NCBI RefSeq assembly: GCF_024970185.1
Contig: NZ_CP103965.1
Span: forward strand, 4,460,001 to 4,524,000
Source of the DNA: Pseudomonas sp. N3-W
GTDB lineage: Bacteria > Pseudomonadota > Gammaproteobacteria > Pseudomonadales > Pseudomonadaceae
Direction of reading: 5' to 3'
DNA: 64,000 nt
In this document: one piece after another, positions 12,609 through 54,000 of the stretch
How positions within the stretch are numbered: the stretch's first letter is position 1
How the letters are laid out: every line of letters starts with the position of its first letter
Notes under the pieces: model-generated
Seen by the model: only the letters and a program-made list of their open reading frames with translations
Told to the model about the DNA's origin: nothing
The model's database searches: none
Position numbers and translations under genes: made by a program

Positions 12609-12619
12609 ACGGCAAAGGA

Positions 12620-16561: not shown

Positions 16562-16568
16562 TCGACCT

Positions 16569-19662: not shown

Positions 19663-19707
19663 TGCCCTACCTGTGTCAGCCATGAAGCAGGCTTTATCCA
19701 AGCTAGA

Positions 19708-21228: not shown

Positions 21229-21318
21229 GTGACCGTTGCACCTTTGCCTAACTTCCACAGGGGGGGCCAGCGCCCGCCTCTCTTTGCGAAGCACAGTTTC
21301 CCTTACCAGAGACGACTT

Positions 21319-27790: not shown

Positions 27791-27840
27791 TCGATAGAGT
27801 CCTTGTTTCAACAAAGTGGAGAACGCGGCGCTATTCCCAA

Positions 27841-27940: not shown

Positions 27941-30900
27941 TTACAGCCGCGCCATGCAATGCTCGATCAACGCTTCGAGTTCCTGCTGGTAGCCCTGCAT
28001 GAAGCCGTCCATGGTCTGGGCCCGATAGCGCTGGGTGCTGTAGATGCAACGCAGCGCCAGTTGACCGTCATAGACCTGGCCGACGATTTCCAGCCAGTTG
28101 CCCAGGTTCGCCTTCAGGCTGTAGTTGTCACCGGTTTCCTCCAGTGCCGGCACCAGCAGGGCTTGCTCGTCGAAGCTCTGGTCGAACTGCCCCAGGTAGT
28201 TGAACGTCACCCGCGCCTGCGGCAGGTCCGCCAGTTGTCGGGCCAATGGCTTGCCGGCCAGATGACGCAGCACGCCATAGCCGATGCCCTTCTGCGGCAC
28301 CGCCGCCAGCTGCGACTGGACCTTGAGGATCGACGCACCGATGTCCTCGCCAGGGTTCAGGCGCACCGGGAACATGCTGGTGAACCAGCCCAGGCTGCGG
28401 CTCAGGTCGATGCTTTCGAACAGGTCTTCACGGCCATGGCCTTCCAGCAGAATCAGCGCCGAAGGCTGCTCGCTCCAGCGGCACAGCGCACGGCTGAGTG
28501 CGGTCAGCAGCAGATCGTTGATCTGCGTGCGATAGACCGCCGGCGCCTGTTTGAGCAACTGCTCGGTGTGCTCGCGGGACAACTTCAGTCGTGCCTGCGC
28601 CTGTTGCCGAACCTGATTCTTGCCACGCAGGTTGTCGCACGGCAGATCGACGCCCGGCTGATCCAGTTGCTCCAGCCAGTAGCCCAGTTCCTGCTCGGCA
28701 ATCACCGGCGCCTGCGCCTGTAACGCTTCGGCAAATGCCCGGTAGCTGCTGGTGCGGATCGGCAGTTGCGGCTCAAGGCCCATGACGCACGCCTCGTACG
28801 CCACCTTCAGGTCGTCGAGCAGAATCCGCCACGACACCGTGTCCACCACCAGGTGGTGAATGACCACCAGCAACCGCGCCGCGCCATCCGGCAAGGCGAT
28901 GTGCACCACTCGCCAGGCCGGCCCGTCGTCGAGCTTGAGGCTGCGCTGGGTCAGGTTGGCCAGGGCTTCCACCTGCTCACTGTCCTGCGCCTCGCGCCGC
29001 CACAGCAGCGGCTCGCGGTTGTCGCTCGGGGTGGCATAACCCTGCCACCAGCTTCCGCCTTCCTGACAGAAGCGCAGGCGCAGCGAATCGTGATGTTTTT
29101 CGATCCAGCCCAGCGCCCGCTCCAGTGCATCCAGGTCCAGGGTCTGGCGCGCACTCAGCAGCAGCGACTGGTTGTAATGGTGCGGTTCGGCCATGCCCTC
29201 GGCGAAGAACCACTCCTGAATCGGCAGCAAGTTGAACAGCCCTTCGCTGGCCACCTGAGTGACATCCACCCGCGGCGGCTGCGAGTCCGGCTTGGCCACG
29301 TCCTGCTCGACAAGGCCGGCAATGGTCTGCAAGCGCATCAAATCGCGCAACTTGAGTTCCATGTTCAGCGTCGGGTGGTTGCGGACCCGGGAAATCACTT
29401 GCAGGCTGAGGATCGAATCGCCGCCCAGTTCGAAGAAATTGTCGGTGATCCCGACCTGCTCCACCTGCAACACCTGCGCCCAGATCTCGGCCAACAGCTG
29501 TTCCTGCTGATTGCGTGGCGCGACGTATTCTTCGCTTTTGAACTCCGGTTCCGGCAGCGCCTTGCGGTCCAGTTTACCGTTGGGCGTGACCGGGAAAGCG
29601 TCGAGGCAGACAATCTGCGCCGGCACCATGTACTCCGGCAGCGTTGTCCGCAGACCGGCCTTGAGCGCGTCGCCCAGCTCCTGTCCGCCTTCGGTGACCA
29701 CGTAGCCGATCAGCTGTTTGCCGCTGGCGTTGTCACGGGCGATCACCAGCGCATCGCTGACCTGATCCAGTTGCCGCAGGCTGGCCTCGACTTCACCCAG
29801 CTCGATACGGAAGCCGCGCACCTTGACCTGATGGTCGATACGCCCGACATAGTCGACCACGCCATCAGGGCGCAGCCGCACCAGGTCGCCGGAGCGATAC
29901 AGCCGTTCGCCCGGGGTAAACGGGTTGGGCACAAAGCGTTCGGCGGTCAGGTCCGGGCGACGGTGATAACCACGGGCGATGCCGTAGCCGCCAATGTACA
30001 ACTCGCCGGAAAAGCCCGGTGGCAGCGGGTTCAGGTCTTCGTCCAGAACGTACAGCGAACGGGCGCCGACCGCACGGCCAATCGGTGCGTAAGCCGCTTC
30101 GCAGTGCTGGCTGACCGGCACTTTCCACAGCATCGGCGTGACCACGGTTTCGGTCGGGCCATAGCCGTTGGTGAAAAACTCGGGCCGCAGCGCCGCCTTG
30201 ACCTGCTCGAATGTCTGGTCCGGCACCGCATCGCCACCGAAGCAGTAGATGCGCACTGGCGGCGGCGCGATGCCACTCGCTGCGGCGTATTCAGCCAGCT
30301 GCTTGAGGTAGGCCGGCGGGAAGCAGGCGATGGTGATGCCGTACTGGTGCAGGGCCTCGTACGTCTGCTCCGGGGTCCACAGGCAACCGTCGCGAATCAC
30401 CAGGCGAGCGCCGCTGTACAGCGTGCTCAACCAGCGTTCATGGGCGCCGTCGAAGGCGAACGACATGAAGTGCAGTTCGCAGCTGCTGCTGTCCATCTCA
30501 TACAGCTTGGCGATGGCCTGACAGTGCATGCTCAACGGCCCCTGAGTGACCGCGACGCCTTTTGGCCGACCGGTGGAACCGGAGGTGTAGACCAGATACG
30601 CCAGCCCCTGCTCCTGCACCCGGCAAACCGGCGCGTGGTCGGGGTAAAGCGCTTCGTCGAGGTGATCGATTTCCAGGCGCAGCAGGCCTTCGGGGGCCGG
30701 CAGCGTGGCACGCAGGCTGCTTTGAGTCAGCAGCAGCGCCATGCCCGAATCCTCGATCATGTACGCCAGACGCTCCGGCGGATAATCGATGTCCAGTGGC
30801 ACGTAAGCCGCACCGCTCTTGAGCACCGCGAGGAAGCTGACGACCATTTCCAGCGAACGCGGCAGCGCGACGCCGATGACCACTTCCGGCCCGGCGCCAT

Positions 30901-33900
30901 GGGCGATCAGGCAGTGGGCCAGGCGATTGGCGCGTTGTTCGAGTTCGGCATAGCTCAGGCTCAACCCGGCGCATTGCAAGGCAATCGCCTCGGGCTGGTT
31001 CACGGCGTGCTGGCTGATCAGCTGCGGCAACAGGGTCGCCTGATGCTCGGCGGCCGGCGCCGCGCTCCAGGCCTGCATCGCCTGCCATTGCTCGCCCGAC
31101 AAACGCTGCAGGTTGCCCAGGCGTTCGTACGGCGCGCTCATCATCGCCTCAAGGGTGTTCTCCATCGTCTGGCGAATGCCTTGCACCGCCTCGGCGCTGA
31201 AGTGGCTGCGCAGGTACAGGTATTCGATGGACAACTCGTCACCGAGCATCACCGCCAGGTCCATCGGCACGTTGGTCACACCATGGCCGATGGACTTGCC
31301 AAAGGTCAGCTCGGTGTCATTTTCTTCCTGCAAGCGGTCATCGATCGGGAAGTTCTCGAACACCACGATGCTGTCGAACAGCCCCTGCCCGCCCAGATTC
31401 GACCAGCGCTGCACATCCGCCAGCGGCGCCTGTGAATAGTCGCGAATGTCCAGGTTGTAGGCCTGCACCTGATTCAGCCAGTCGGCCAGCCGCTGATCCG
31501 GCTCCGGCGTCTGGATGATCGGCAAGGTGTTGATGAACAGCCCGAGCATGTTGCCGACATTCGGCAAGCTCTCGGGACGCCCGGACACGGTGGCGCCGAA
31601 CGTGACAGTGCGCTGGCCGGTGTAACGCTGCAACAGCAATAGCCACGCGCCCTGGATCAAGGTGTTGGGGGTGATGCGCAGGTCGCGGCAGAACTGCTGC
31701 AAGCGTGCGGTCTGCGATTTGTCCCAGTTCGAATAGATCGCATCGTGCCCGGCCACATCCACCGAATGACGCGGATGCATGGCCTGGCTCAGCGCCGTCG
31801 GCTCGTTGACCGAGGCCAGGCGGGCTTTCCAGAACAGCTCCTGGGCGTCCTGATCCTGCGCTTGCAGCCAGGCGATGAAGTCGCGATAACGGCCGTTCTC
31901 GCCATTGACCTGACCGGTGCCGTAGTACTGCAACACTTCGCCGAACAAACGCGAACTGCTCCAGCCGTCCATCAGGATGTGGTGGCTGGTCCAGATCATC
32001 TGGAACTGCTCGTCGCTGAGGCGCAGCAAGGTCACTCGTTGCAGACGCGCCTGAGCCAGGTCGAACCCCAGCGCACGGTCTTCGGTGGCGAACTCGGCGA
32101 TCTGTGCTTCGCTGACCTCGCGCTCACGCCAGTCGAGTACCTGCATCTGCAACGCGGCGCGGTGCTGGACGATCTGTAACGGTTTGGCCAGCCCGTCCTG
32201 CCAATGGAAGCTGGTGCGCAGAATGGCCTGGCGCTCGATGATGAAGTCCCAGGCACCACGGAAACGCTCCACATCCAGCCCTTTGACCGGCAGGCTGACC
32301 TGCTGCACGTACAGGCTGCTGCCGTTATCCGACAGGGTGTGGAACAGCATGCCTTCCTGCATCGGCGACAGCGGGTAGATGTCTTCGATGTCGACCGCCG
32401 GCACCGGCAGTGCATCGAGTTGCGCCTGATCGAGGCCCGCCAGCGGGAAGTCCGACGGCGTCAGGCCACGGCTGTCCGGCAGGCAGCAATGCTCGACCAA
32501 TGCGCCCAGTTCCTGCACGTATTCCTGCGCCAGACGCTGGATGGTCGCGGTGTTGAACTGCTGCCGGTTGAACGACCAGTGCACCTGCAACTCGCCGTCG
32601 CGCAGCTGTGCATCCAGGCTCAGCCAGTGACTGGAAGAATGTTGCGCCGGGGTTGCAGCGCCGGCCACGAACACGCTATCGCCGACCACATCGACGCTGT
32701 CGTGGAAAGTGAAACCGATGCGCGCGCCCTGCCCTTGCAGACGCTCGCGCAACAGGCCGTAGCCGATGCCCTGATCCGGCACCGCACGCAGTTGCTCCTT
32801 GATCTGCTTGATCGAATCGGCCAGCCGCTCGCCGCCGGTCAAACGCACCGGGTAACGATGACGGAAACCGCCGACGGTGCGGCTCAGGTCCAGCGCCTCG
32901 CCCAGCGCATGTCGACCGTCTGCCTCAAGCTCGACCAGGGTTGACGCCTGACCACTCCAGCGCGAGATCACCCGCGCCAGTGCCGTCAGCAACAGCTCAT
33001 TGAGTTCGGTGCGGTAAGCGGCGGGGGCTTGCGCGATCAGTTTGTGAGTCGCGGTCTGATCGAGCGCTTCGACCAGCGTGACCGCCGCGGATTGACCTTG
33101 CGGCTGATCCAGCGGCAGCTCAATTGCATCGCCACTCAGTTGCGCCTGCCAGAACGGCCACTGCACCAGCAGCGCATCGCTGCGGCCATGCTCCAGCAGT
33201 TGTTCGCTCCAGCGTTTGAACGCGGTGGTCTTGGCCGCGAATTTCACCGTGTCACCGGCCTGCAGTTGCTGGCAGGCACGCTGCAAGTCCTGCAACAGCA
33301 GCGACCAGGAAACGCTGTCCACCGCCAGCCAGTGAGCAACCACCAGCAAGCGTTGCTCGCCTTCAGGCAGTTCGAACAACACCGCGCCGAGCAGCGGGCC
33401 TTGCACGGCATCCAGCTGGTTTTGCGCCTGTTCGGCGAAAATTTGCAGTTGTGCGAAGTCGCTCACGCGCTGCTGACGGAACATCGCGCCAGCCGCTTCG
33501 CGATAGTGAGCAACGCCGTCGGCGAAGCTCAGGCGCAGGCTGTCGTGCTGCTGCAGCAACGCTTGCAAGGCCTGTTCAACAAGCTCCGGCGTCAGCGCCG
33601 CCAGCGGTTCGAGCAACACCGAATGGTTGCCCGGACGTTGTGCGGCCGGTGCCTCCAGATACCACTGTTGCAGCGCCAACAACGGCGTGCTGCCGGTCAC
33701 GGCGCCTTGATCGGCCGCCAGCAGCGCCGGATCGAAAGACACCACCGTGGCCAGACCTTCAATGGTCTGTTGCTGGAACAGGTCTTTGGGCGTGAAGCGA
33801 ATGCCCGCCTGACGCGCCCGGCTGACCACCTGGATGGAGATGATCGAATCGCCGCCCAGGGTGAAGAAGTTGTCGCTGATCCCGACCCGTTCGATTTTCA

Positions 33901-36900
33901 GAATGTCTTGCCAGACCTGCACCAGTTGCTGTTCCAGCGCCGTGCGCGGTGCCACGTAATCGCGTTGCGCCGCGTTGGCGTCGGGGGTCGGCAGGGCCTT
34001 GCGGTCGAGTTTGCCGTTAGGGGTCAGCGGCAAGTGATCGAGGAACAGCCACTGCACCGGCACCATGTAATCGGGCAGGTGCGCCTTGAGCGCGGCCTTC
34101 AGCGCTTCGCTCAGATCGTCCTGTGCCTGCGGGCTCAAGTCGGCCTGGGTTGGCACCACATAGGCCACCAACTGTTGACCGCTGTGGCCATCCACCGCCA
34201 GCACCACGCCTTCGCGCACGCCGGCATTGGCCAGCAGCCGCGCTTCGATTTCACCCAGTTCGATACGGAAACCACGGACCTTGACCTGATGGTCGATGCG
34301 CCCGACGTATTCGATCCGGCCGTCGTCGCCCAGGCGCGTCAGGTCGCCGGTGCGGTACATGCGCTCACCGTTGTTCGCCAACGGGTTGGGCACGAAGCGC
34401 TCGGCGGTCAGGCCCGGACGGAACAGGTAGCCACGGGTGATGCCGTCGCCGGCCAGGTACAGCTCGGCCGCGACACCAATGGGCGCCGCTTGCAGCTGTG
34501 CGTCGAGCAGGTACGCCGTGGTGTTGACCAGTGGCCGTCCGATGTTCGCCTGGCCACCGGCTTCGCGGCGGGTCCAGGTCGAATACGTGGTGTCTTCCGA
34601 CGGCCCATACAGGTCGAAGACATGCTCCACCGACGTCTCGCGGTACAGCGTGTCCACCAGGCTTTGTTTGAGCGGTTCACCCGCCAGATTGATGATGCGC
34701 ACGCCCTGCGGAATCTGTGCAGCGCGTTGCAGCGCGGCGATGGCCGACGGCACGGTGTTGATCAGGCGTACCTGATCGCGCTCCGGCAGGTCCGGCAGTT
34801 CCAGCGCATTGCGCGCCATGACGATTGATCCGCCACGGGCCAGGGTGACGAAAATCTCCCACACCGACAGGTCGAAGCACACCGACGTCGAGGCCAGCAC
34901 GCCTTGCAGGTCGTCTTCGCTATAGACCTCGCGGGACCAGTGAATCAGCGCCTGTACGTTGCGGTGGGCGATGGCCACGCCTTTGGGTTTGCCGGTGGAA
35001 CCGGAGGTGTAGATGACGTACGCCAGGTTGGCCGAATCACCGCGCGGTTCAAGGTTGTCGGCGGCACACTCGACAAAGGCCTGACCGCCTGCCTCGACCA
35101 ACAGCAGCTGCGCACCGGTCTGCGGCAATTGCGCGAGCAGCGCCTGCTGGGTCAGCAGGACTTTTGCCTGGCTGTCTTCCAGCATGTAGGCCACGCGATC
35201 AGCCGGGTAATCCGGGTCCAGCGGCACGTAGGTGCCACCGGCCTTGAGCACGGCCATCAGGGCAATCACCAGCTCCGCCGAACGCGGCATCGCCACGCCC
35301 ACCCGCACTTCCGGGCCGACGCCCAGCGTCACCAGACGGCGAGCCAGCTGGTTGGCGCGGCGGTTGAGTTCGGCGTAGCTCAGGGCGACACCGGCATGAC
35401 TCAGCGCCAGCGCTTGCGGGCGAGTCTGCACCTGCGCTTCAAAGCTCTGCTGAATCAATAGTTCTGCGGGGTAGACGGCGTGATGCTCGTTCCACTGTGC
35501 CAGCGTGTGCAGCTCGGTGGCCGACAACAGGCCGATGTCACCCAGCAGGCGTTGCGGTGCTTCAAGGAACTGGCGCAGCACTTCTTGCAGATGCGCCGCC
35601 AGGCCCAGAATGCTGCGCTCGGCGAAGTGTTCGGTCAGGTAGTTGAAGTCCAGGTTCAACACGTCGCTGGCGCCGGCGATCAGGGTCAGGCCGTAGTTGG
35701 TCTGCTCGCGGTGTTCCAGGCCACTGAAGCGCAGGCCGCCCGGATTGGCTTCCAGCGCGTCCGAGACCGGGTAGTTTTCGAACACCAGCAGGGTGTCGAA
35801 CAGCGCTTCGCCACTGAGTTGGGCCAGGCGCTGGATGTCTTGCAACGGCGTCTGCTCGTAGTCGCGCAGCAGCAGGTTCTTGTCCTGCACGCTGCGCACC
35901 CAGTCGCGCACGCTGCTGGTGGCTGGCGGGCTGGCGATCACCGGCAAGGTGTTGATGAACAGCCCAAGCTGTTGCTCGATGCCCGGCAAATCCACCGGAC
36001 GTCCGGACACCGTGGCGCCAAAAGCGACGCTGGTCTGCCCGGTGTAACGTTGCAGCACCAGCAGCCAGGCGGCTTGCACCAGGCTGTTGAGGGTCACTTG
36101 TTGCTGGCGGGAAAAACCGTTGAGGCGCTGGGTGAACGCCGCATCGAAATGCAGGCGATGCATGCCCTTGCCCGGTCCCGGCACGGTCTGTCCCTGGCAG
36201 GCGGACGCCAGTCGTGTCGGCTCCGTCAGCTCGGCCAGTTGCCCGCGCCAGAAGGCTTGCGCGGCGTCCTTGTCCTGGCGTTGCAGCCAGGCCAGGAAGT
36301 CGCGATAACGCCCCTGGGCACTCGGCACCGGGTGCCCGGCGTAGTCTTGAAGCACCTCGCCGAACATCCGCGAGTTGCTCCAGCCGTCCATCAGAATGTG
36401 GTGGCAGGTGAAGATCAGGCGATGCCGATCATCCGCTGTGCGCAGCAGGCACAGGCGCAGCAGCGCCGGGTTCTGCAAATCGAAACCGCGCTCACGGTCC
36501 GACCGGGCACGGCTTTCAAGGGCGGCGGCCAGATCGGGTTCGCCGCGCACATCGACTTCCGGCATTTCCAGGGTCAGCTGGCGATTGATCACTTGCAGCG
36601 GCGTATCGAGACCGTCGCGGCCCCAGATGAAACCGGCACGCAGCACTTCATGGCGGTCCACCACGCGCTGCCAGGCTTGCTGGAAGCGCGGCACGTCGAG
36701 GCCGTCGATGTCCAGCAGCATCTGGTACACGTAGGCGCTGGCATCGGCGTCGTAGAGGCTGTGGAACAGAATGCCCTGCTGCATCGGCGCCAGCGGATAG
36801 ATGTCCTCGATCCGTTGTGCGGCCATCGGCAGGCTGTCCAAATGCGCCTGGGACAGACCGGCCAGCGGCACGTCGGACGGGGTCAGGCCGCCGCTTGGGT

Positions 36901-41506: not shown

Positions 41507-41519
41507 GCGTTGTTCCCTC

Positions 41520-44500
41520 TCAAGAAATCAGTTTTTCCAGATCATCGAGGGATAGACGTTTGAGGGCCTCCAGGGATTTAGCCAATTCGTCCTGAACCGG
41601 CGACATTTCGACGCGCAACGCTTCTATCCGAGTGCAGAACGCTTGCAGCGTGTCGGTTTCGAACAGCTCCTTGAGTGCCACTTTGTCGCCCAGACGCTCC
41701 TTGATCCGGGTCACCACCAGGGTGGCCAGCAACGAGTGCCCGCCCAGCTGGAAGAAGTTGTCCGTGAGACCCACCTGCTCGACCTCCAGCACCTCCTGCC
41801 AGATGATTGCCACTTGCCGTTGCAGGTCCGTGTGCGGCGCCTCAAAGCGCTGCTGGATCGGACTGCCACCCATGGCAATCAGCGCCTTGCGGTCCAGTTT
41901 GCCGTTGGGGGTCAGCGGCACGCCGTCGATCAGGTGCAGGTGCCCCGGCACCATGTGCGCCGGCAAGCGGCCGCTCAGGGCCGAGCGCAGTTGTTCGGCC
42001 AGCGCCTGTCGATCCACGTCCGGTTGCGCGGCCACCACATACGCTTGCAGGTGCTTGCCGGCGGCGCCGTCCTGGGCCAGGACCACGGCTTCACGGACCT
42101 CGGGCTGCTCCAGCAGTCGCGCTTCGATTTCGCTCAGCTCGATGCGGAAACCACGGATTTTCACCTGATGGTCGGCGCGACCGATGTACTCGATCTTGTC
42201 GTCTGCACCCTGGCGTACCAGGTCGCCGGTGCGGTACAGACGCTCGCCGTTGCTGGCGAACGGGTCCGGCACAAAGCGCTCGGCGGTGAGTCCGGCACGC
42301 ATCAGATAACCCCGGGTGACACCGGCGCCCGCCAGGTACAGTTCGGCCGCGACGCCCGCCGGCAGCGGCTGCAACTGACTGTCGAGCAGGTAGGCGACGG
42401 TGTTGTCCAGGGGCCGGCCGATGTTGGCCTGACCGTGGGCGCTGCGCAGGGTGAACGTCGAGTACGTGGTGTCTTCCGACGGCCCATACAGGTCGTAGAC
42501 CTGCTTGACCGAGGTGCTCGCGTACAGCGTGTCCACCAACGTCTGCTTGAGCGGTTCACCGGCCAGGTTGAGGGTGCCGACCGACGGCGGAATCTGCCCG
42601 GCACGCTGCAGGGCGGCAATCGCCGACGGCACGGTATTGATCAGCGTGACCCGCTCGCGGGCCGGCAAATCGGCCAGCGCCAGAGCATTGTCCGCCAGCA
42701 CCATGCAACCGCCGCAGGCCAGGGTGACAAAGATTTCCCAGACCGACAGGTCGAAGCAGATCGAGGTTGACGCCAGCACGCCGCGCAACTGCTCGGCGCT
42801 GTACACGCCCTCGGACCACTGGATCAGCGCCCCGAGGTTGCCATGGGTGATCGCCACGCCCTTGGGCTTGCCGGTCGAACCCGAGGTGTAGATGACATAG
42901 GCCAGGTTCTGCGCATCGAGGCGGATCGCAGGTGCCGTGGCCGGGAAATCATCCAGCCAGTCCAGACGCGGCTCGACCACCAGCACTTGCGCCGACAACG
43001 TCTCGGGCAACAGCGCCAGCGCCGCGGATTCGGTCAGCAGCACCGTCGCGCAGCTGTCTTCCAGCATGTGCAGCAGGCGCTCTTGCGGATAGTCCGGGTC
43101 CAGCGGCACATAGGCGCCGCCGGCCTTGAGGATCGCCAGCAAACCCACCAGCATGTCCGGCGTGCGGCGCATGCACACGCCCACCCGCACTTCCGGGCCG
43201 ACGCCCAGCGCTTGCAGTTTGTGCGCGAGGCGATTGGCGCGCGCATCGAGGCTGCGGTAATTGATCTGCTGATCGGCGAACAGGATGGCGTCCGCGTCCG
43301 GCTGGCGCTGTACCTGCGCCTCGATCCGTTGCAGCACCGTGCGTGAATCCGTCGCGGTGATGCTGGCCTTGCCCCAATCGGCGGCGACCTGACGTTGCCC
43401 GGCGTCCAGCAGTTGCAGCGCGCCCAGCGGCTGCGTGGCATCGGCAAGGAACTGGGTCATCAGGCTTTCGAGCTGAACGCTCAGGCCGGCGATGGTTGGC
43501 GCATCGAAACAGGCCCGGTCGAAGCTCAGCCCAAGGCTCAATTCACGACCGGTCACCGCGACCAGCGTCAGCGGGTAGTGGGTCTGTTCCTGACGGGTAA
43601 TGCCGGAAAATGCCAGACCGGTGGCCTCGCCCTGCTCCAGCGCTTCGGCCATCGGGTAATTTTCGAATACCAGAATGCTGTCGAACAACGAACCCGCACC
43701 CAGACCGGCCCAGCGCTGCACGTCGTAAAGCGGCGTGTGTTCGTGTTCGCGCAGGGCCAGGTTGAGGCTCTGCACCTGTTGCAGCCATTGACCTACCGCA
43801 ATCTCGGCGGACGGCGCGGCCACCACCGGCAAGGTGTTGATGAACAGGCCAATCTGTTGCTCGACACCCGGCAAGTCGGTCGGACGACCGGCCACGGTGG
43901 CGCCGAACGCCACGCTGTCCTGACCGGTGTAACGCTGCAACAGCACCAGCCATGCGGCTTGCATCAGGGTGTTGAGGGTGACTTTCTGTTCCCGGGCGAA
44001 GCGGTTCAGGTCGGTCGTCAGTTGTTCGCTGAACACATGCTGGTGATCGGCATAACCGCTGCTCAGCGCCTGACGCGGCGCCATGGCACTGGCCAGACGG
44101 GTCGGCTCTTCAAGGCTGGCAAGCGCCGACCGCCAGAACGTGCGACTGGCCTGCGCATCGCGCTGGCCGAGCCACTGAATGTAATCGCGATAACGTCCCT
44201 GCGACGTGGCCGGGGTGATGCCGGCATAACGTTGCAGCACTTCGCCGAACAACTGCGAGGTGCTCCAGCCGTCCATCAGAATGTGGTGGCTGGTGTAGAT
44301 CAGGTGATGCCGGTCGTCGCCGGTTTGCACCAGCAGCACGCGCAACAGCGGTGCCTGGTCCAGCTCGAAACCGTTGGCCAGGTCATCCCGGGCCAACTGC
44401 TCCAGCGCCGTATCGAGATCAGCACGACCGCGCCAGTCCTGCACGCTCCACGGCATCTGCACCGTCTGGCGGACCACCTGCACCGCCGCCGCGGCGTCTT

Positions 44501-47500
44501 CAGGCCAGACAAACACGGTGCGCAGAATCTCGTGGGCATCGACCGTCTGCTGCCAGGCCTGGCGGAAACGCTCGGTGTCCAGATGCTGCACATCGACCCG
44601 CAACTGGTTGGTGTAGGCCGGGCCGTCGGGCTCGTTGACGCTGTGGAACAGGATGCCCTGCTGCATCGGCGACAACGGATACAGATCGCCGATGTCCCGC
44701 GCCGGCACCGGCAGTGCCGACAGCTGCGCCTGGGTCAGGCTCGCCAGCGCGAAGTCCGACGGGGTGACGCCAGCCTGCCCGCTGTCGCAGCAATGATCGA
44801 TCAGCCGCTCCAGTTCATGGCGATAGGCCGTGGCCAGCGCTTCGATGGTGTGCGGGCGATACATGCCGGTGCCGAAGGTCCAGCTCAGTTCCAGCTCGCC
44901 GTCATACACCTGGCCATCGATGCTCAGCCAGTTGCCCAGCGGCGCCGCGCTGTCCTGAGTGGCGCCGGTGCTTTCGCCGGTGGGCACGAACAAGGCGCCG
45001 TCGGCGGCGCTGAACGCACCGTCGAACTGGCCCAGATAGTTGAACGTCACCCGTGGTTGCGCCATGGCCCGCAGCGGCTCGGCCTGGGTCAGGTAACGCA
45101 ATACGCCGTAGCCGATGCCTTTGCCGGGCACCCCGCGCAGCTGTTCCTTGATCGCGCACAGGGAATCACCCGGCGCGGCTTCAGGGGTCAGGCGCACCGG
45201 GAACAAGCTGCTGAACCAGCCGACAGTGCGGCTCAGGTCCAGGTCATCGAACAGGTCTTCACGGCCATGGCCTTCGAGCTGGATCAGCACCGACGGCTGC
45301 TCGCTCCAGTCGCACAGCACCCGCGCCAGCGCCGTCAGCAACAGGTCGTTGATCTGAGTGCGGTAGGCGGCGGGCGCGACCTTGAGCAGCTTGTGGGTCA
45401 GCGCCTTGCTCAGGCGCGAGGTGGCACGGGCAGCTTGCTGTTGGGTCTGGACAGACTGTGGGAAATCCTGCGGCAGCTGTGCCCCGACGGCGTCCAGCGT
45501 ATGGCTCCAGTAATCGCGTTCAGCGGCCAGTGCTTCGCCCTGCCCGTAGCGATGCAGGTGCTCGGCCCAGCTCTGCAACGCGCTGCTTTTGCCCGGCAGC
45601 GCAATCGCCTTGCCCGCCGCCAGTGCGGTGTAGGCCTGCTGCAAATCTTCGAGCAGGATCCGCCAGGACACGCCGTCCACTACCAGGTGATGGATAACCA
45701 GCAACAAGCGCTGCGCGCCGTCAGGCAGATTCACCAGCAGCGCGCGCAACAAGCGCCCTTGTTGCAGGTCGAGACTGCGCTGAGCTTCATTCGCCAAGGC
45801 CGACAGATCGGCCAGGTCGTTCAGCTCACGCACCCACAGTAGCTCTGGATCACGCGGGCTCTGGAAGGTCGCTTGCCAACGGTCGCCGGACGCCTGGAAA
45901 TTCAGCGCCAGGGCATCGTGATGCTCGATCAGGGCAGACAGGGCCGCCTTCAGATGACCGGCATCGAGCGCCGTTTGCGGTTGCAACATCACCGACTGGT
46001 TCCAGTGATGACGCTGGGCAATGTCCATCTCAAAGAACCGCGCCTGAATCGGCAGCAACGGCAGGGTGCCGCTGACCTGTTGTGGCGCAACCACCGCCGG
46101 CTTGGCCTCGATCAGTTTGGCCACCGCTGCCAGTTGGCCGATGGTCTGTTTCTCGAACAATTGCTTGGGGCTCAGCTTGATGCCCTGACGCTTGGCCCGG
46201 GCGATGATTTGCAGGCTCAGGATCGAGTCGCCGCCCAGTTCGAAGAAGTTGTCGGTGCTGCCCACGCGCTCAAGCTTGAGCACCTCGGCCCAGATCGCCG
46301 CGAGCTTCTCTTGCACCTCACCCACTGGCGCGACATAACGCTGAGTGACCACGCCCGGCACCGGCAAGGCGCGTTTGTCCAGTTTGCCGTTGGCGGTGAG
46401 CGGCAGTTGGTCGAGCAGGACGATCTGCGCCGGCACCATGTAGTCCGGCAGACAGGCCTGCAACTGCTGACGCAGGTCCTCCACGGTCAGCGACGCGGCC
46501 GAGGCGGCCACGCACCAGGCGACCAGTTGCAGGCGCGATTCATCACCGTCCAGCGCCAGGGCCAGCACCGCGGCCTCGCTCACGCCATCGAGGCCGAGCA
46601 AGGTCCGCGCGACCTCGGCCGGCTCGACGCGATAACCGCGCACCTTGACCTGATCGTCGGCGCGGCCGATGAATTCCAGCGCCTGTCGCCGGTTGCGCCG
46701 CACCCGGTCACCGCTGCGATAGACCCGCGCACCGACCGCGCCAAACGGATCCGGCAGGAAGCGCTCGGCGGTCAGGGCCGGCTGGCCCAGATAACCGAGG
46801 GCCACGCTGTCGCCGCCGATGTACAACTCGCCGGCCACCTGATCGGCGACGGCGTTGAGCACGTCGTCGAGTACGTAGACGTGTGCGCCCGGCAATGCTG
46901 CACCGACAGGGATGCTGCGGGCATCCGGATCGAGCGCGACGACTTCATGGGTCAGCACGCCGACCGTGGTTTCGCTCGGGCCATAGTGGTTGATGAAACG
47001 GCAGCCCGGTTTCAGTTCCCGCACCCGTTGCAGCAGTGCCGGCGAGCAGGCTTCGCCGCCGACGATCAGCGCATGTTCGGGCAATACATCGGCGGCGCGA
47101 GTTGCCTGCAACAGTGCCGACAGATGCCCCGGCACGATTTTCAGCACGCCCACCCGGTGGGTCGCCATGTAGTCGGCAAAGCGGTCCGGGTCGAAGCCCA
47201 GTTCTTCCGGCAACACATGCAGCAGACGCCCGGAACACAAGGCGCCGAACAGCACGGTAAAGCCCAGGTCGGCGGCAATGGTCGAGACCAGCGCCATGCT
47301 CGCGTCCGGCGCCAGCGCCAGACGCTCCAGCGCCCCGCGCACGTAACTGGCCAGCGCGCCGTGGCTCACCAGCACGCCCTTGGGTTGCCCGGTGGAACCG
47401 GAGGTGTGAATCACGTAGGCCGGTGCCTGCGCCGACAGGTTCAGCGCAGGGCTGGTCAGCGGTTGGTCGTGCCACTGCGACGGCGCAAAGGCCAGGCCCG

Positions 47501-49346
47501 CGACGCCCAGCCGGGTGATGCGTTCGTCACCGTCAGCACACAGCAGCAGCCTTGCCTGGGCACTTTCGAGCATCGGCTGCAAGCGTGCGGCAGGCGCCTT
47601 GACGTCCAGCGGCATGTACACGGCCCCGGCCTTGAGAATCCCCAACACGCAGGTCAGCCAGTCCAGCGAGCGCTCCATCAGCACCGCCACCGGCTGGCCT
47701 GGCTGCACACCTTGGGCCTGCAAATAATGCGCGAGCTGATTGGCCGCCTGATCCAGCGCCTTGAAACTCAGGCTCTGTTCCAGCCCACGGGCGGCCAGCG
47801 CCTCGGGTTGCCGCGCGACTTCACGATCCCAGTGCTGCAACACCGGCAGCGCCGGCTCGCGCGGTGTGTCGGCCAATCGCACGGGTGTTGTGGCGACGTT
47901 GTGCAACGGTGCCTGCGGGGCCTTCAGCAGTTCGCCGAACAGGCCGAGCAACGCCGGGATAAAGCCTTCGATGGTCGAGCGTTGATAAAGGTCGCTGGCG
48001 TAGGTCATCTGCCCGTGGATCAGCGCGCCGTCGTCGGTGATGTCCAGCGCCAGGTCGAAGTGCGTGCCTTCCTTGTCCAGTGGGTATTCGGCAACGCTCA
48101 GGCCCGGCAGGTCCATCGCACGCTGTTTCTGCATGCCGACGTTCTGGTTGAACTTGACCTGGAACAGCGGGTTATGACCCAGGGTGCGCTCGGCGACCAG
48201 TTCGTCCACCAGTTGTTCGAACGGCAGTTCCTGATGCGCCTGGGCGCCGAACGATGCCTCGCGCACCTGCGCCAGCAGATCATTGAAACTGCCGCGCTCG
48301 TCCACCTGGCAACGCAGTACCTGAGTGTTGACGAAGAAGCCGATCAGCCCCTCGACTTCAGCCCGGCCACGGTTGGCATTGGGCACGCCGACGCGAATGT
48401 CCCGCTGCCCGGCCTGACGCGACACAAACAGCGAAAACCCGGCCAGCACCAGCATGAACAGACTGATGCCCTGGGCGCGGGCAAAAGCGTTGAGCTGGCG
48501 CGACAGGTCGGCGCCGAAATCGAAGCTCAGGGTCTGGCCTTCATAGCTCTGGTTCAGTGGTCGGGCAAAGTCCGCCGCCACGTCGAGCAATGGGTGTTCT
48601 TCACCCAATTGCTGACGCCAGTAGTCGAGTTGGCGTTCGCCCTCGCCGGCTTCCAGCCAGCGCCGTTGCCAGATCGCGTAGTCGGCGTACTGCAAGACCA
48701 GCGCCGGCAGTTGCGGTTCGCGCTCCAGGCTGAACGCCTGATAGCACTGCACGAACTCCTTGACCATCACGTCCATCGACCAGCCGTCGGAGACGATGTG
48801 GTGCATGCTCACCACCAGCACGAATTCATCATCGGCCAGGCAAAACAGGCTGGCACGCAGCAGCGGCCCGTGACGCAAATCGAACGGCTGCGCGGTGACC
48901 GCATTGACCTGCTGCGCCAGTTGCGCTTCGCGGTCTTGCGCAGCAATGCCCGACAGATCGATGCGTTGCAGCGCTATGTTCTGCTGGTCGAGGATCACCT
49001 GGGTCGGCTGCTCGCCGTCCGTGTGGAACACCGTGCGCAGCACCTCGTGGCGCGCCACCAGATGGTCGAAGGAGCGCAGCAGCGCCGACTCGTTCAGGTG
49101 CCCGTGCAGACGCAGGCCGGCGGCCATGTTGTAGGCGGCGCTTTGCGGCTCCAGCTGCCAGAGAAACAACAGGCGCTGCTGGGCAAACGACAACGGGATC
49201 TGCGCGCAGTCGTGACGGCTGACCGGCAACGGCAGCAGGCTGAAATCCTTGCCCTCCTCGCGCAACCTGGCCAGAAACAGTCGACGTTGCTCAAGCGGCA
49301 AACCGACGAACCTTTTAGCAATGCGTTCCGCCATAGTGCCGCTCAT
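41520..49346 (-). CDS. pvdJ: Middle pyoverdine NRPS: C-A(Asp)-T-E / C-A(Ala-like)-T
   Basis: The 2608-aa product overlaps the previous NRPS by four bases (stop/start), so translation is coupled; the next NRPS starts 13 bp after it. Domains by approximate residue: C1 40-480 (HHIVSDGWS, L-donor type), A1 490-985, T1 Ser near 1041 (LGGDSI), E 1075-1520 (HHLVVDGVSW), C2 1530-1980 (PLSPMQQGILFH and HHILMDGWS, D-donor type), A2 2000-2490, T2 Ser near 2538 (LGGHSL). Pocket residues: A1 DLTKIGHVG, nearly the Asp code; A2 DLWNNALTY, identical to module 2 of the next protein. It is predicted to add D-Asp, hydroxylated by the SyrP-like enzyme at 52980, then an L-Ala-type residue. The C-terminus (LEALKRLSLDDLEKLIS) may be a docking helix. 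The pvdJ symbol is positional. Confidence 0.9.
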   Translation of the reverse strand: MSGTMAERIAKRFVGLPLEQRRLFLARLREEGKDFSLLPLPVSRHDCAQIPLSFAQQRLLFLWQLEPQSAAYNMAAGLRLHGHLNESALLRSFDHLVARHEVLRTVFHTDGEQPTQVILDQQNIALQRIDLSGIAAQDREAQLAQQVNAVTAQPFDLRHGPLLRASLFCLADDEFVLVVSMHHIVSDGWSMDVMVKEFVQCYQAFSLEREPQLPALVLQYADYAIWQRRWLEAGEGERQLDYWRQQLGEEHPLLDVAADFARPLNQSYEGQTLSFDFGADLSRQLNAFARAQGISLFMLVLAGFSLFVSRQAGQRDIRVGVPNANRGRAEVEGLIGFFVNTQVLRCQVDERGSFNDLLAQVREASFGAQAHQELPFEQLVDELVAERTLGHNPLFQVKFNQNVGMQKQRAMDLPGLSVAEYPLDKEGTHFDLALDITDDGALIHGQMTYASDLYQRSTIEGFIPALLGLFGELLKAPQAPLHNVATTPVRLADTPREPALPVLQHWDREVARQPEALAARGLEQSLSFKALDQAANQLAHYLQAQGVQPGQPVAVLMERSLDWLTCVLGILKAGAVYMPLDVKAPAARLQPMLESAQARLLLCADGDERITRLGVAGLAFAPSQWHDQPLTSPALNLSAQAPAYVIHTSGSTGQPKGVLVSHGALASYVRGALERLALAPDASMALVSTIAADLGFTVLFGALCSGRLLHVLPEELGFDPDRFADYMATHRVGVLKIVPGHLSALLQATRAADVLPEHALIVGGEACSPALLQRVRELKPGCRFINHYGPSETTVGVLTHEVVALDPDARSIPVGAALPGAHVYVLDDVLNAVADQVAGELYIGGDSVALGYLGQPALTAERFLPDPFGAVGARVYRSGDRVRRNRRQALEFIGRADDQVKVRGYRVEPAEVARTLLGLDGVSEAAVLALALDGDESRLQLVAWCVAASAASLTVEDLRQQLQACLPDYMVPAQIVLLDQLPLTANGKLDKRALPVPGVVTQRYVAPVGEVQEKLAAIWAEVLKLERVGSTDNFFELGGDSILSLQIIARAKRQGIKLSPKQLFEKQTIGQLAAVAKLIEAKPAVVAPQQVSGTLPLLPIQARFFEMDIAQRHHWNQSVMLQPQTALDAGHLKAALSALIEHHDALALNFQASGDRWQATFQSPRDPELLWVRELNDLADLSALANEAQRSLDLQQGRLLRALLVNLPDGAQRLLLVIHHLVVDGVSWRILLEDLQQAYTALAAGKAIALPGKSSALQSWAEHLHRYGQGEALAAERDYWSHTLDAVGAQLPQDFPQSVQTQQQAARATSRLSKALTHKLLKVAPAAYRTQINDLLLTALARVLCDWSEQPSVLIQLEGHGREDLFDDLDLSRTVGWFSSLFPVRLTPEAAPGDSLCAIKEQLRGVPGKGIGYGVLRYLTQAEPLRAMAQPRVTFNYLGQFDGAFSAADGALFVPTGESTGATQDSAAPLGNWLSIDGQVYDGELELSWTFGTGMYRPHTIEALATAYRHELERLIDHCCDSGQAGVTPSDFALASLTQAQLSALPVPARDIGDLYPLSPMQQGILFHSVNEPDGPAYTNQLRVDVQHLDTERFRQAWQQTVDAHEILRTVFVWPEDAAAAVQVVRQTVQMPWSVQDWRGRADLDTALEQLARDDLANGFELDQAPLLRVLLVQTGDDRHHLIYTSHHILMDGWSTSQLFGEVLQRYAGITPATSQGRYRDYIQWLGQRDAQASRTFWRSALASLEEPTRLASAMAPRQALSSGYADHQHVFSEQLTTDLNRFAREQKVTLNTLMQAAWLVLLQRYTGQDSVAFGATVAGRPTDLPGVEQQIGLFINTLPVVAAPSAEIAVGQWLQQVQSLNLALREHEHTPLYDVQRWAGLGAGSLFDSILVFENYPMAEALEQGEATGLAFSGITRQEQTHYPLTLVAVTGRELSLGLSFDRACFDAPTIAGLSVQLESLMTQFLADATQPLGALQLLDAGQRQVAADWGKASITATDSRTVLQRIEAQVQRQPDADAILFADQQINYRSLDARANRLAHKLQALGVGPEVRVGVCMRRTPDMLVGLLAILKAGGAYVPLDPDYPQERLLHMLEDSCATVLLTESAALALLPETLSAQVLVVEPRLDWLDDFPATAPAIRLDAQNLAYVIYTSGSTGKPKGVAITHGNLGALIQWSEGVYSAEQLRGVLASTSICFDLSVWEIFVTLACGGCMVLADNALALADLPARERVTLINTVPSAIAALQRAGQIPPSVGTLNLAGEPLKQTLVDTLYASTSVKQVYDLYGPSEDTTYSTFTLRSAHGQANIGRPLDNTVAYLLDSQLQPLPAGVAAELYLAGAGVTRGYLMRAGLTAERFVPDPFASNGERLYRTGDLVRQGADDKIEYIGRADHQVKIRGFRIELSEIEARLLEQPEVREAVVLAQDGAAGKHLQAYVVAAQPDVDRQALAEQLRSALSGRLPAHMVPGHLHLIDGVPLTPNGKLDRKALIAMGGSPIQQRFEAPHTDLQRQVAIIWQEVLEVEQVGLTDNFFQLGGHSLLATLVVTRIKERLGDKVALKELFETDTLQAFCTRIEALRVEMSPVQDELAKSLEALKRLSLDDLEKLIS

Positions 49347-52300
49347 ACGTCTACTCCCTCCAAAGAACTCATGAACTGATCCATGTCGGACCAGTCGTTA
49401 TCCGTGGCAATGCCGGCCTGTTGTTCAAGCTCCAGCGCCAGATCACCCAGCAGCGGTTTCTCGAATAAAATGCGCAGCGGCAAGACCACGCCCAGTTGAT
49501 GCTTGATCCGGCCAATCACTTGCGCGGCCAGCAGCGAATGGCCGCCCAGCTCGAAGAAGTGGTCGTCGAGACCGACCTGGGGAACCTGCAACACCTCGCG
49601 CCAGATCTGCGCCAGGCACTGTTCGGTATCGCTTTGCGGCGCTCGATAGTCGACCTGCAACTGGCTCGGGTCCGGTGCCGGCAAGGCCTTGCGGTCCAGC
49701 TTGCCGCTGGGGGTCAGCGGCAGGCGCGGCAACAGCAGCAAATGGCCGGGGACCATGTAGTCCGGCAGGCTGGCTTGCAGCAGGCCTCTGATTTGCTGAC
49801 GGAAAACCGCCTGTTCGGCGGCGCTGTCGATGACCGCTTCATCGACGACCAGGTACGCCACCAGTTGCAGGCCGCCTGTCAGCGGCAAGGCCAGCACCAC
49901 GGCTTCACGAATGCCCGCGCATTGCTGCAGGCGCGATTCGATTTCGCCCAGCTCGATGCGGAAGCCGCGAATTTTCACTTGATGATCGACACGGCCGACG
50001 TATTCCACGGCGCCATCGGCGCGCCGGCGGGCGCGGTCGCCAGTGCGGTACAGACGCTCGCCAGCGGCAAACGGGTCGGCGATAAAACGTTCAGCGCTGA
50101 GGGTCGGCTGCCGGTGATAACCACGCGCCAGGCCGGGGCCGCCGATGTACAACTCGCCCACTGCGCCTTGAGGCAGCAGGTTCAAGTCATCGTCGAGCAC
50201 GTAGAGACGCCGTTGCGCCAGACCGAGGCCAATCGGAATGCCGCGCCACGACACCGCTTCTGGTGTCAGCGCAGTGCAGTCGTGAATGGTCGAGACCACG
50301 GTGGCTTCGGTCGGCCCATAGGTATTGAGCAGGCGCACATGACCGAGCCCGGCGCGTTGCCACAGACGCAGACCGTCCACCGCCATCGCCTCGCCGCCGA
50401 CGTGAATCTGGCGCAGGGCACCGAAATGCGCCGGCGGGTTGGCGGCGTAATCCTGCACCAGCCAGTACCAGTAGGCGGCCGGCAAGTCGGCCAGGGTGAT
50501 GCCGTGTTCGAGGATCACCTGATGCAGCGTCGCGCTGTCCCACAACCGTGTGTCGCGCAGCACCACGCAGGCGCCATGGCACAGCGGCGGGAAGAACTGC
50601 TCGACGAAACCGTCGAAGCTGCTGGTCGCGAACTGCAAGACGCGGTCGCCTTCGCGCAGGTCGCTGTAGTCGATGGCGCGCTCGATGAATTCGCTCAGTG
50701 CGCCGTGGCTGACCGCCACGCCTTTGGGACGCCCGGTAGAACCTGAGGTGTAGATCACGTACGCGAGGTTCTGCGGATCGACCGCGACCGGCGGGTTGTT
50801 CTCGACATCACCGTTCGGCAGGCGATCCAGGCACAGGCAGTCGATGCCTTGCAGCGTGGGCAGGTGGGTCAGGGTTGTGCTGTCGGTCAGCAGCAGTTGC
50901 AGACCACTGTCATCGAGCACATGGCGCAAGCGCTCGGCCGGGGTTTGCGGGTCCAGCGGCACATAGGCGCCACCGGCCTTGAGCACCGCCAGCAAGGCCA
51001 CTGCCAGTTCCAGCGAACGACCGAGCGCCACCCCCACCAGCACGTCGGGGCCGACGCCTTTGGCGCGCAAGTGATGGGCCAGGCGATTGCTGCGCTGATT
51101 GAGTTCGGCGTAGCTCAAGGACGGCGCTGCTTCGTCTGCCAGAATCAGCGCCTGCGCCTGCGGCGTGCGCGCCACTTGCGCTTCGAACAGCTGCTGCACG
51201 CAAGGCAACTGCGCTGGGCTGTCGGCGTTCTGGATCAAGCCGTCGCGTTCGGTCGCGGCCAGCATCGACAACTCGCCCAGCAGCTGTTGCGGATCGCGGC
51301 ACACCGATGCCAGCAGGTTATGCCAATGCCCGGCGAGCGCGGCGATGGTCGATTCGTCGAAGATGTCGGTGGCGTAGGTAAAGGCGGCGAACAGGTGCTC
51401 GCCCTCCTCCCTTGTATCGAGCATCAGGTCGCTGGTGGCGGCATGTTGGCGGCCACTGCCGGCCAGTTGCGCCTCGCTCAGGTAGCCCACCTGCAAACCG
51501 CAATCGAGCTGCACCGCTTGCAGGTCGGTGACCAGCGGTTGGTGGTTGAACATCACCTGGAACAACGGGTTGTGGCTCTGGCTGCGGGCCGGTTGCAGGG
51601 CTTCGATCAGCGCGTCGAATGGCAGCTCCTGATGGGCCTGGGCACCCAGCGCGGCTTGGCGCAGGTTCTGCAACAGGTCGGCGAAACGGGTGTGCGCGGT
51701 CACTTCGCTGCGCAGGATCTGGGTGTTGACGAAGAAGCCGATCAGGCCTTCGGTTTCGCTGCGGGTGCGGTTGGCAATCAGGCCGCCGACGCGGATGTCG
51801 GTCTGGCCGCTGTAGCGATGCAGCAAGGTCTTGAACGCGGCCAGCAGCACCACGAACAGCGTCACGCCCTGACGTTGCGCGAGGTTCTTCAGGTCCTGGC
51901 GCAGGGCGCTGTCGATGACTTTTTCCAGGCGCGCGCCCTGATGACTGGATTGCGCCGGGTAGGCGCGGTCGGTCGGCAATTCGAGGACCGGATGTTCTTC
52001 GCCCAGTTGCGTGCGCCAGTAATCGAGCTGACGCTCGCGCTCGCCCGCCTCCAGCCAGCTGCGCTGCCACAGGGCGTAGTCGCGGTAGTGCACGGTCAAG
52101 GCCGGCAGCGTCGGAGACTGGCCGGCGACGAGGGCATCGTAGGTTTTCATGAACTCGTCGATGAGGATGTTCATCGACCAGCCATCGGCAATGATGTGGT
52201 GCAGGGTCAGCAGCAGGACATGCTGGCGCTCGGCCAGGCGCAACAGGCGCAGGCTCAGCAGCGGCCCCTGTTGCAGGTCGAAGGCCTGGGTGGCTTCGGC

Positions 52301-52744
52301 CATCATGTGCTGCTGCGCACGGGCCCAGCGCTGGGCCTCGGGCACGGTGCTCAGGTCGGTGATCGCCAGCTTCAGTTCACGGGGCTCGCTGACCTGCTGG
52401 AAGGCACGTTCGCCCTCCTGACCGAAGGTGGTGCGCAGGCACTCGTGCCGCGCCACCAGCAGGCTGAACGCTTGCTCCAGCGCCTGGGGCTGCAACTCGC
52501 CGTCCAGGCGCACCGCCATCGGCAGGTTGTAGGCGGCGCTTTGCGGGTCCAGTTGCCAGAGAAACCACATCCGCTGCTGGGCGTAGGACAGGCCGTCACG
52601 CTCGGCGGCCCCGACACAGGCGGTCATGGGAAGCTGCGCAAAATCGATGCCTTCGCGGGCCATGCCGGCCAGGAACAAGCAGCGCTTGTCCTGTGGCAAC
52701 TCGATAAAGCGGCGGGCTAGTTTCTGTGCGTCTGCGGCATTCAT
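49343..52744 (-). CDS. pvdI: First peptide-chain pyoverdine NRPS of this locus: C-A(Lys-like)-T
   Basis: The product is a single-module protein of 1133 aa. C at about 50-480 (L-donor type; HHIIADGWS), A about 520-1010 with the A3 motif YTSGSTGRPKG, T near Ser1070 (LGGHSLLAAQV), and a short acidic tail (WSDMDQFMSSLEGVDV) that may dock to the next NRPS. Pocket residues read DGEDHGTVV; Glu239 and Asp278 suit a basic side chain, and I recall this as a Lys code in pyoverdine synthetases. With no E domain it should add L-Lys to the chain delivered by PvdL, whose last module normally ends without an E domain, matching the L-donor C domain here. ATG 52744 has AAGGA upstream, and a perfect PvdS box precedes it. 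The pvdI symbol is positional. Confidence 0.88.
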   Translation of the reverse strand: MNAADAQKLARRFIELPQDKRCLFLAGMAREGIDFAQLPMTACVGAAERDGLSYAQQRMWFLWQLDPQSAAYNLPMAVRLDGELQPQALEQAFSLLVARHECLRTTFGQEGERAFQQVSEPRELKLAITDLSTVPEAQRWARAQQHMMAEATQAFDLQQGPLLSLRLLRLAERQHVLLLTLHHIIADGWSMNILIDEFMKTYDALVAGQSPTLPALTVHYRDYALWQRSWLEAGERERQLDYWRTQLGEEHPVLELPTDRAYPAQSSHQGARLEKVIDSALRQDLKNLAQRQGVTLFVVLLAAFKTLLHRYSGQTDIRVGGLIANRTRSETEGLIGFFVNTQILRSEVTAHTRFADLLQNLRQAALGAQAHQELPFDALIEALQPARSQSHNPLFQVMFNHQPLVTDLQAVQLDCGLQVGYLSEAQLAGSGRQHAATSDLMLDTREEGEHLFAAFTYATDIFDESTIAALAGHWHNLLASVCRDPQQLLGELSMLAATERDGLIQNADSPAQLPCVQQLFEAQVARTPQAQALILADEAAPSLSYAELNQRSNRLAHHLRAKGVGPDVLVGVALGRSLELAVALLAVLKAGGAYVPLDPQTPAERLRHVLDDSGLQLLLTDSTTLTHLPTLQGIDCLCLDRLPNGDVENNPPVAVDPQNLAYVIYTSGSTGRPKGVAVSHGALSEFIERAIDYSDLREGDRVLQFATSSFDGFVEQFFPPLCHGACVVLRDTRLWDSATLHQVILEHGITLADLPAAYWYWLVQDYAANPPAHFGALRQIHVGGEAMAVDGLRLWQRAGLGHVRLLNTYGPTEATVVSTIHDCTALTPEAVSWRGIPIGLGLAQRRLYVLDDDLNLLPQGAVGELYIGGPGLARGYHRQPTLSAERFIADPFAAGERLYRTGDRARRRADGAVEYVGRVDHQVKIRGFRIELGEIESRLQQCAGIREAVVLALPLTGGLQLVAYLVVDEAVIDSAAEQAVFRQQIRGLLQASLPDYMVPGHLLLLPRLPLTPSGKLDRKALPAPDPSQLQVDYRAPQSDTEQCLAQIWREVLQVPQVGLDDHFFELGGHSLLAAQVIGRIKHQLGVVLPLRILFEKPLLGDLALELEQQAGIATDNDWSDMDQFMSSLEGVDV

Positions 52745-53963: not shown

Positions 53964-54000
53964 GACGGGCCTCCTGTAAACAGTCAATAAGTGAACCGCG

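Follow-up and report, generated by a model that had tools for sequence, protein, structure and literature searches.

Six modules in three adjacent synthetase genes

The window analyzed here is a stretch of 64,000 nucleotides from Pseudomonas sp. N3-W (G000:C1:4460001-4524000 of a 6.67-Mb one-contig genome). It contains three adjacent minus-strand genes for non-ribosomal peptide synthetases (NRPS) that are predicted to build a pyoverdine peptide of the pseudobactin B10 type. The three genes (49343-52744, 41520-49346, and 27941-41506) are all open frames and encode proteins of 1133, 2608, and 4521 residues, respectively. Pfam models identified 10 domains of the condensation (C) family, namely six C and four epimerization (E) domains, together with six adenylation (A) and six thiolation (T) domains, which matches the need of six modules. 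No thioesterase domain was found with Pfam in any of the three proteins. For comparison, 36 related loci from a named genome collection, all of them from Pseudomonas, were used.

The codes of the A domains were read by motif-anchored alignment, with anchor positions that we take to be those of GrsA. Together with the Pfam matches, this gave the layout C-A-T for NRPS 1, C-A-T-E and C-A-T for NRPS 2, and C-A-T-E, C-A-T-E*, and C-A-T-E for NRPS 3, in which E* denotes a degenerate E domain. From the codes (Table 1), the module order over the three genes is predicted to be Lys, Asp-E, Ala, Thr-E, Ala-E*, Orn-E. All nine letters of each of the six codes agreed with an earlier note on this DNA, which had also called E domains in modules 2, 4, and 6 and a degenerate one in module 5; the respective cores are HHLVVDG, HHLVVDG, HHLVVDT, and HWLAVDS. 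In a smaller re-alignment, the relatives had T, D, or E in place of N at position 4 of their Thr and Ala modules, which was taken as a one-column slip.

All 24 clusters with the code DGECCGGVT, counting the window and the related loci together, have it in the final module of the gene. This module ends in an E domain and lacks a thioesterase domain, both in the window and in those relatives of the same synthetase for which the end is covered. The first two codes have a published precedent: Table 2 of PMC3207962 lists PSPPH_1923 of P. syringae 1448a as a single-module Lys NRPS with the same eight-residue code as module 1, and module 1 of PSPPH_1924, predicted to be specific for Asp, has the same eight-residue code as module 2 here (PMC3207962).

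The predicted peptide

Read in order, the six codes predict Lys-OHAsp-Ala-Thr-Ala-OHOrn (OH, hydroxy), the residue order of the B10-type peptide. The peptide of Pseudomonas sp. W2Aug36/B10 is printed as epsilonLys-OHAsp-Ala-aThr-Ala-cOHOrn (aThr, allo-Thr; c, cyclic) with 989 Da (PMC4219678, Table 2), and the same peptide is given for strain S3a20, with C42H59N11O17 and [M+H]+ 990.41686 (PMC8888394). Masses computed for this peptide, 988.425 with succinamide and 989.409 with succinate, fit the printed 989. The residue order claimed in the earlier note, that of pseudobactin B10, was thus borne out by the codes, which equal the published W2Aug36/B10 and S3a20 peptide; its version of the peptide fell short in one respect, as Lys had been written without its epsilon linkage. 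By analogy, Lys is probably epsilon-linked. A Lys directly before OHAsp is given as epsilon in 8 of 9 rows of three published tables, including those of PMC4219678 and PMC8888394; these rows are not all distinct structures, and in the S3a20 row the sign has dropped out, but the text states epsilon (PMC8888394). PMC4019867 writes plain Lys. Reading the linkage from the A code itself was rejected, as DGEDHGTVV is also found in clusters of other residue order.

The residues of B10 reportedly alternate L,D,L,D,L,D. In the window, E2 and E4 keep the HHxxxDG motif, E6 has HHxxxDT with its other motifs whole, and E5 is broken, while C6, being of the DCL type, conflicts with this pattern.

Motif loss in the E domain of module 5

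In E5, HWLAVDS stands in place of the HHLVVDG of E2 and E4, so that the second His of the motif is replaced by Trp. Two further motifs that have roles in E domains are also altered: EGHGRE reads EADGRH, with the first E and GR kept, and FNYLGQF reads FT----F, with NYLGQ deleted. Nearly the same changes were found in E5 of Pseudomonas sp. ANT_J12 (L040); in P. mandelii, P. lini, and P. iridis (L043, L044, and L061), all three motifs are whole. The HHxxxDG motif is needed for epimerization (PMC8949500).

In the comparison of the window with ANT_J12, E5 had the highest omega, 0.335 (0.259-0.445), the remaining 11 domains lying at 0.042-0.132. In the E-domain tree, which was made with a quick method and in which the ANT_J12 row was flagged as long, the dead E5 domains fall together with the intact ones (SH-aLRT 99), with a stem length of 0.89 compared with 0.11 for the intact stem. 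Judged from its motifs, E5 of the window is likely dead and would leave residue 5 as L-alanine.

Four states of E5 among related synthetases

The named loci and the window provided 20 scorable synthetases, in which E5 was intact in six (L041, L043, L044, L046, L061, and L072), dead in two (the window and L040), reduced to a scar in two (L042 and L052), and absent in 10. L047 and L049, the latter from the same strain as L072, are cut before E5 and were left out. The scars read SPVxGSTAFKRSSxPGSHxLTPSDFPLA and, by eye, resemble the start, a middle piece, and the end of E5.

In addition, 398 genomes drawn evenly from the genus, with the window's own included, were searched for the terminal E6. 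It was present at a nucleotide identity of at least 80% in 11 of the 398 genomes, the next best match having 74%, and among these 11, E5 was intact in three, dead in one, a scar in one, and absent in six. A DNA search of the 398 genomes with E5 itself was discarded, as it returned mostly partial matches of 65-76% identity, many of them evidently to other E domains; E6 was cleaner. Ten genomes were fetched from the draw; six overlap the named loci, and L141, L146, L147, and L148 were counted as new, although some of these four may belong to the same species as named loci, L141 and L147 being near-copies of L061 and L057 in C6. Taken together, 24 genomes carry this synthetase, with E5 intact in eight, dead in two, a scar in two, and absent in 12.

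The C domain of module 6 differs with the state of E5

Hidden Markov models (HMM) of LCL, DCL, and E domains were built from the window's own domains, and the DCL call was repeated without C6. In the repeat, C6 was of the DCL type in 20 of 20 synthetases, with 464-490 bits versus 99.9-111.5 bits for LCL. Within this type, 44 of 436 columns of C6 share no residue between the six intact and the 14 other synthetases, and at 22 of the 44 sites each of the two training groups has a single fixed residue. With the same rows, the number of such non-overlapping columns was 0 of 434 for C5, 0 of 490 for A5, 2 of 76 for T5, 1 of 495 for A6, 0 of 75 for T6, and 1 of 430 for E6; for A4 and E4, from which the partial L072 was left out, it was 0 of 494 and 0 of 430. 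The four new genomes were held out of the choice of sites. Intact-type residues were found at 44 of 44 sites in L141 and at 33 of 44 in L148, and other-type residues at 42 of 44 in L146 and at 44 of 44 in L147.

In the tree of C6, a single clade (99/99; 96/97 in an earlier tree with 14 rows) holds all 16 synthetases that lack a working E5, and the eight with intact E5 group together with weaker support (82/81). The closest solved relative of C6 is a PvdL C domain.

Exchange of the stretch from T5 through C6

A tree of module 4 plus C5, made with a quick method and leaving out L072, places the scar strains with P. lini and P. mandelii, and the intact P. iridis with the E-lacking P. anatoliensis. 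Sliding identities locate where these genes change partner. The identity of L042 with P. lini is 92-100% from C4 to A5, falls to 73-90% over T5 and the greater part of C6, and returns to 91-95% at the end of C6 and beyond. P. iridis has 96-100% identity with P. anatoliensis until early A5, 93-98% to the middle of A5, and 71-90% thereafter; from T5 onward, through the rest of the gene, its identity with P. mandelii is 89-97%. In both mosaics, C6 moved together with the state of E5; the sliding identities give no direction of transfer. These profiles point to at least two transfers between lineages of the segment that runs from T5 through C6.

Interpretation and alternatives

Our preferred reading, to which we assign a probability of about 0.8, is that the three genes with their six modules build the pseudobactin B10 peptide and that the dead E5 leaves residue 5 as L-alanine. 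PvdL would hand the chain to the Lys module, where the side-chain amine of Lys likely accepts it, and the TauD-family enzyme would hydroxylate Asp. The D forms of OHAsp, aThr, and OHOrn would come from E2, E4, and E6, respectively. The ring would be closed by the N-hydroxyl amine of the terminal residue, and the chain would thereby be freed without a thioesterase domain; other candidates for release are the stand-alone thioesterase and the esterase downstream of NRPS 3. The assignment of L-Ala5 conflicts with the following DCL-type C6, but it is rescued because the His is lost and C6 falls into the E-lacking clade. Ala5 of this strain is thus likely L, P. lini or P. mandelii likely make a mass-identical form with D-Ala5, and the peptides of these related species would likely differ only in the handedness of one alanine.

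Several points weigh against this reading. A DCL-type C6 by HMM would, taken alone, predict a D donor, and a module of P. putida GB-1 that was predicted to be specific for Ala proved to be specific for Gly (PMC4019867). As to the split of C6, L141 and L147 are weak tests because they are near-copies of training rows, and L148, the most diverged of the set and the only hard test, is imperfect, as it has other-type residues at 8 of the 44 sites and residues of neither type at 3. In the comparison of the window with ANT_J12, the omega interval of T5 (0.029-0.314) overlaps that of E5, and the intact pair L044 and L041 is also highest at E5 (0.187; 0.097-0.350). E5 is thus loosely constrained even where it is intact, and part of its high omega may lie in its nature; omega of E5 is about 1.8 times higher in the dead than in the intact pair, with overlapping intervals, and at an omega below 1 some purifying constraint remains. 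Neither the intact pair nor the near-copies alter the probability of 0.8, as the weight lies on the loss of the histidine and on the clade of C6, not on omega.

The tree of the receptor FpvA, with 18 rows of this type (the window and 17 related loci; L050 and L051 have no FpvA in it) and five outgroup rows, also does not follow the state of E5. The scar strains group with the intact strains (96/100), the strains with absent E5 form one clade (99/97), and the dead pair falls firmly in neither group; the intact strains as one clade were not rejected (p 0.607). Receptor matching as a test of Ala5 handedness was therefore given up, as this tree lends no support.

With regard to the history, an ancestor with an intact E5 would have made D-Ala5; in one lineage E5 would have died and C6 changed with it, and finally the dead E5 would have eroded to a scar or vanished. 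A wider proposal is that B10-type pyoverdines comprise two variants, L-Ala5 and D-Ala5, that are indistinguishable by mass and between which strains toggle by swapping a cassette of the end of T5, E5, and C6. The window strain might then be a living intermediate, with a dead E5 in an L-tuned cassette and a C6 of DCL fold turned to L donors. We put this forward tentatively, at somewhat less than even odds.

The role given to C6 in this proposal has a competitor, namely that the 44 differences are linked neutral differences of two old alleles and have no role in donor chirality. One clade split accounts for most of them, the joint movement of C6 and E5 in both mosaics makes hitch-hiking possible, and L148 departs from its type at the eight sites mentioned; however, the domains adjoining C6 have only 0-2 such sites, and both mosaics kept the type of C6 with the state of E5. 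This explanation is doubtful but has to be taken seriously. It is unlikely that the E-lacking form is ancestral and that intact E5 was gained by recombination: P. iridis does carry an intact E5 on a backbone like that of the E-lacking P. anatoliensis, but E5 has left traces within the E-lacking C6 clade, namely the dead domain and the scars, and C6 is of the DCL type even where E5 is absent. Still less probable is a DLWNNALTY module specific for glycine or some other small residue, in which case the product would not be of the B10 type; the GB-1 module is a possible precedent, but both Ala codes are identical here and the whole order equals a known peptide. Least credible is a D-Ala at residue 5 made by a still working E5 or by an epimerizing C6, since the DCL call, the open frame of E5 with omega below 1, and the first E of EGHGRE kept in E5 stand against the Trp in place of the second His, the deletion of NYLGQ, and a C6 that groups with synthetases without any E5.

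Other genes of the locus and the genome

Table 1. Features of the pyoverdine locus in the window and a mosaic gene of P. iridis
Feature	Position	Strand	Basis
NRPS 1, module 1 (C-A-T)	49343..52744	-	code DGEDHGTVV: Lys
NRPS 2, module 2 (C-A-T-E)	44751..49202	-	code DLTKIGHVG: Asp; E core HHLVVDG
NRPS 2, module 3 (C-A-T)	41622..44687	-	code DLWNNALTY: Ala
NRPS 3, module 4 (C-A-T-E)	36902..41374	-	code DFWNVGMVH: Thr; E core HHLVVDG
NRPS 3, module 5 (C-A-T-E*)	32417..36808	-	code DLWNNALTY: Ala
E5, likely dead epimerization domain	32450..33691	-	broken motifs, omega, tree placement
C6, DCL-type condensation domain, E-lacking clade	31079..32386	-	HMM, trees, column split
NRPS 3, module 6 (C-A-T-E)	27947..32386	-	code DGECCGGVT: OHOrn; terminal E core HHLVVDT; no thioesterase domain
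TauD-family dioxygenase, likely Asp beta-hydroxylase	52980..54092	-	PF02668 8.8e-49; in related loci, homologues lie upstream of the Lys module
Stand-alone thioesterase, candidate editing or release enzyme	54001..54741	-	PF00975 1.4e-42
Alpha/beta esterase just downstream of NRPS 3	26834..27814	-	PF07859 3.9e-68; present in related loci
FpvA-type TonB-dependent receptor	24075..26555	+	
PvdE-type cyclic peptide exporter	22311..23960	+	TIGR01194 over cut-off
PvdO	21229..22206, start probably near 21319	+	NF051459 529.9 bits, cut-off 500
PvdM-type dipeptidase; PvdO next	19891..21228	+	PF01244
Putative PvdP	18064..19722	+	position only; no Pfam or NCBIfam match
PvdRT-OpmQ-type efflux genes	13376..17963	+	PF16576, PF12704, PF02321
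PvdA, ornithine N-oxygenase	11155..12615	-	PF13434 5.8e-110
P. iridis mosaic gene	L061 9980-23656		resembles P. anatoliensis as far as A5 and P. mandelii from T5 on

The chromophore maturation genes are present, with PvdO identified by NF051459 over its cut-off, PvdM and PvdE by likeness, and PvdP by position only. pvdL, which the earlier note had left to be found elsewhere in the genome, lies at G000:C1:4586626-4599750, about 74 kb from the NRPS genes and adjoining a sigma-factor-like frame. Its frame of 4375 amino acids has three A domains of the TSGSTG type, the last with a Dab-like motif, and we take it to be PvdL from this content, not from a PvdL model. A further pyoverdine module at the other NRPS regions (2.97, 3.00, 3.87, and 4.37-4.41 Mb) is unlikely. 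The region G000:C1:4370717-4404789 has three NRPS frames of 2922, 4357, and 5364 amino acids with 11 C domains split 2-4-5, presumably the size pattern of amphisin-type lipopeptides.

The earlier note's reading of pvdA as present and pvdF as absent agrees with the profile matches. The PvdA match to PF13434 is the best of four in the genome, and no PF00551 formyltransferase match was found in the window or the pvd regions, all seven genome-wide matches lying elsewhere. A cyclic, non-acylated terminal OHOrn is in line with both results, yet a gene of Acetyltransf_8, a siderophore acetylase family, adjoins pvdL (G000:C1:4600686-4601705); the predicted product has no acetyl-OHOrn. The neighbourhood was viewed for one of the seven PF00551 matches, that at 3.806 Mb (L114, G000:C1:3806319-3806582): a formyltransferase-like frame of 266 amino acids lies in unusual company, by eye between ectoine-synthase-like and aminotransferase-like frames. 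A second Lys/Orn N-oxygenase (L106, G000:C1:890255-891262) stands, by eye, beside GNAT-like and aminotransferase-like frames, which points to a further small hydroxamate pathway.

PvdM ends at 21228 and PvdO starts near 21319, and pvdN is missing between them. In 14 of 14 related loci with both pvdM and pvdO, a gap of 1.20-1.35 kb separates the two frames, and the frame in the gap is a Tat-type PvdN where its start was shown. The best genome-wide match to PvdN of P. lini has 23% identity, and no PvdN-like Tat start was found among 16 of the 17 PF00266 matches (the 17th is L131). Pseudobactin B10 reportedly carries a succinamide side chain, which is not expected here because pvdN is missing; the likeness to B10 is drawn from the peptide, not from the NRPS genes of B10. 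PvdN makes the succinamide (PMC6206403). The product expected from these genes would carry Glu (computed [M+H]+ 1019.443), or ketoglutarate (1018.411) if a PtaA is present, compared with 989.432 for the succinamide form, so that as a whole molecule it may be set apart from pseudobactin B10 by its side chain.

Downstream of a VgrG-like gene of the window, the adjoining frames 4681-5154 and 5216-5680 match successive parts of DUF2515 and may be one interrupted gene.

Relation to known systems and implications

With the B10-type pyoverdines described in PMC4219678 and PMC8888394, the window shares the residue order, and the genes for the hydroxylase and PvdA are present. The cluster PSPPH_1922-1926 of P. 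syringae 1448a (PMC3207962) is alike in having an Asp hydroxylase gene, the single Lys module, and an Asp-first synthetase, but it continues with Thr-Thr-Ser-OHAsp-Ser, whereas Ala-Thr-Ala-OHOrn and a terminal E without a thioesterase domain follow here. The terminal DGECCGGVT module with such an E domain also occurs in P. fluorescens 28B5 (L066), P. pharyngis (L060), and Pseudomonas sp. TH15 (L056), in each case in a residue order other than that of the window. A parallel in kind is found in type XVI pyoverdines, where synthetases that are otherwise alike differ in an E domain and, along with it, in the neighbouring T and C domains (PMC11366639). In type XVI, however, the difference lies at the Orn residue and E is only present or absent, whereas here it lies at Ala5 and dead and scar stages survive; in addition, type XVI receptors are mostly grouped by the state of E (PMC11366639), and FpvA here does not follow that of E5.

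Thus, the type of product is already known, as is, from the description of type XVI (PMC11366639), the gain or loss of an E domain together with changes in the C domain next to it. The published titles and abstract openings among the matches listed do not name a dead E domain for this synthetase, and within the literature searched, the dead epimerase, the graded series of E5 states, and the matched C6 had no precedent for this synthetase.

If the proposal holds, natural synthetases that differ at one E and one C domain would offer a direct test of how C domains read donor handedness, with 44 named sites of C6 to test instead of a whole domain, and the exchanged stretch would be a natural guide for engineering. 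Siderotyping by mass alone could then merge diastereomers, which could matter for who takes up whose iron.

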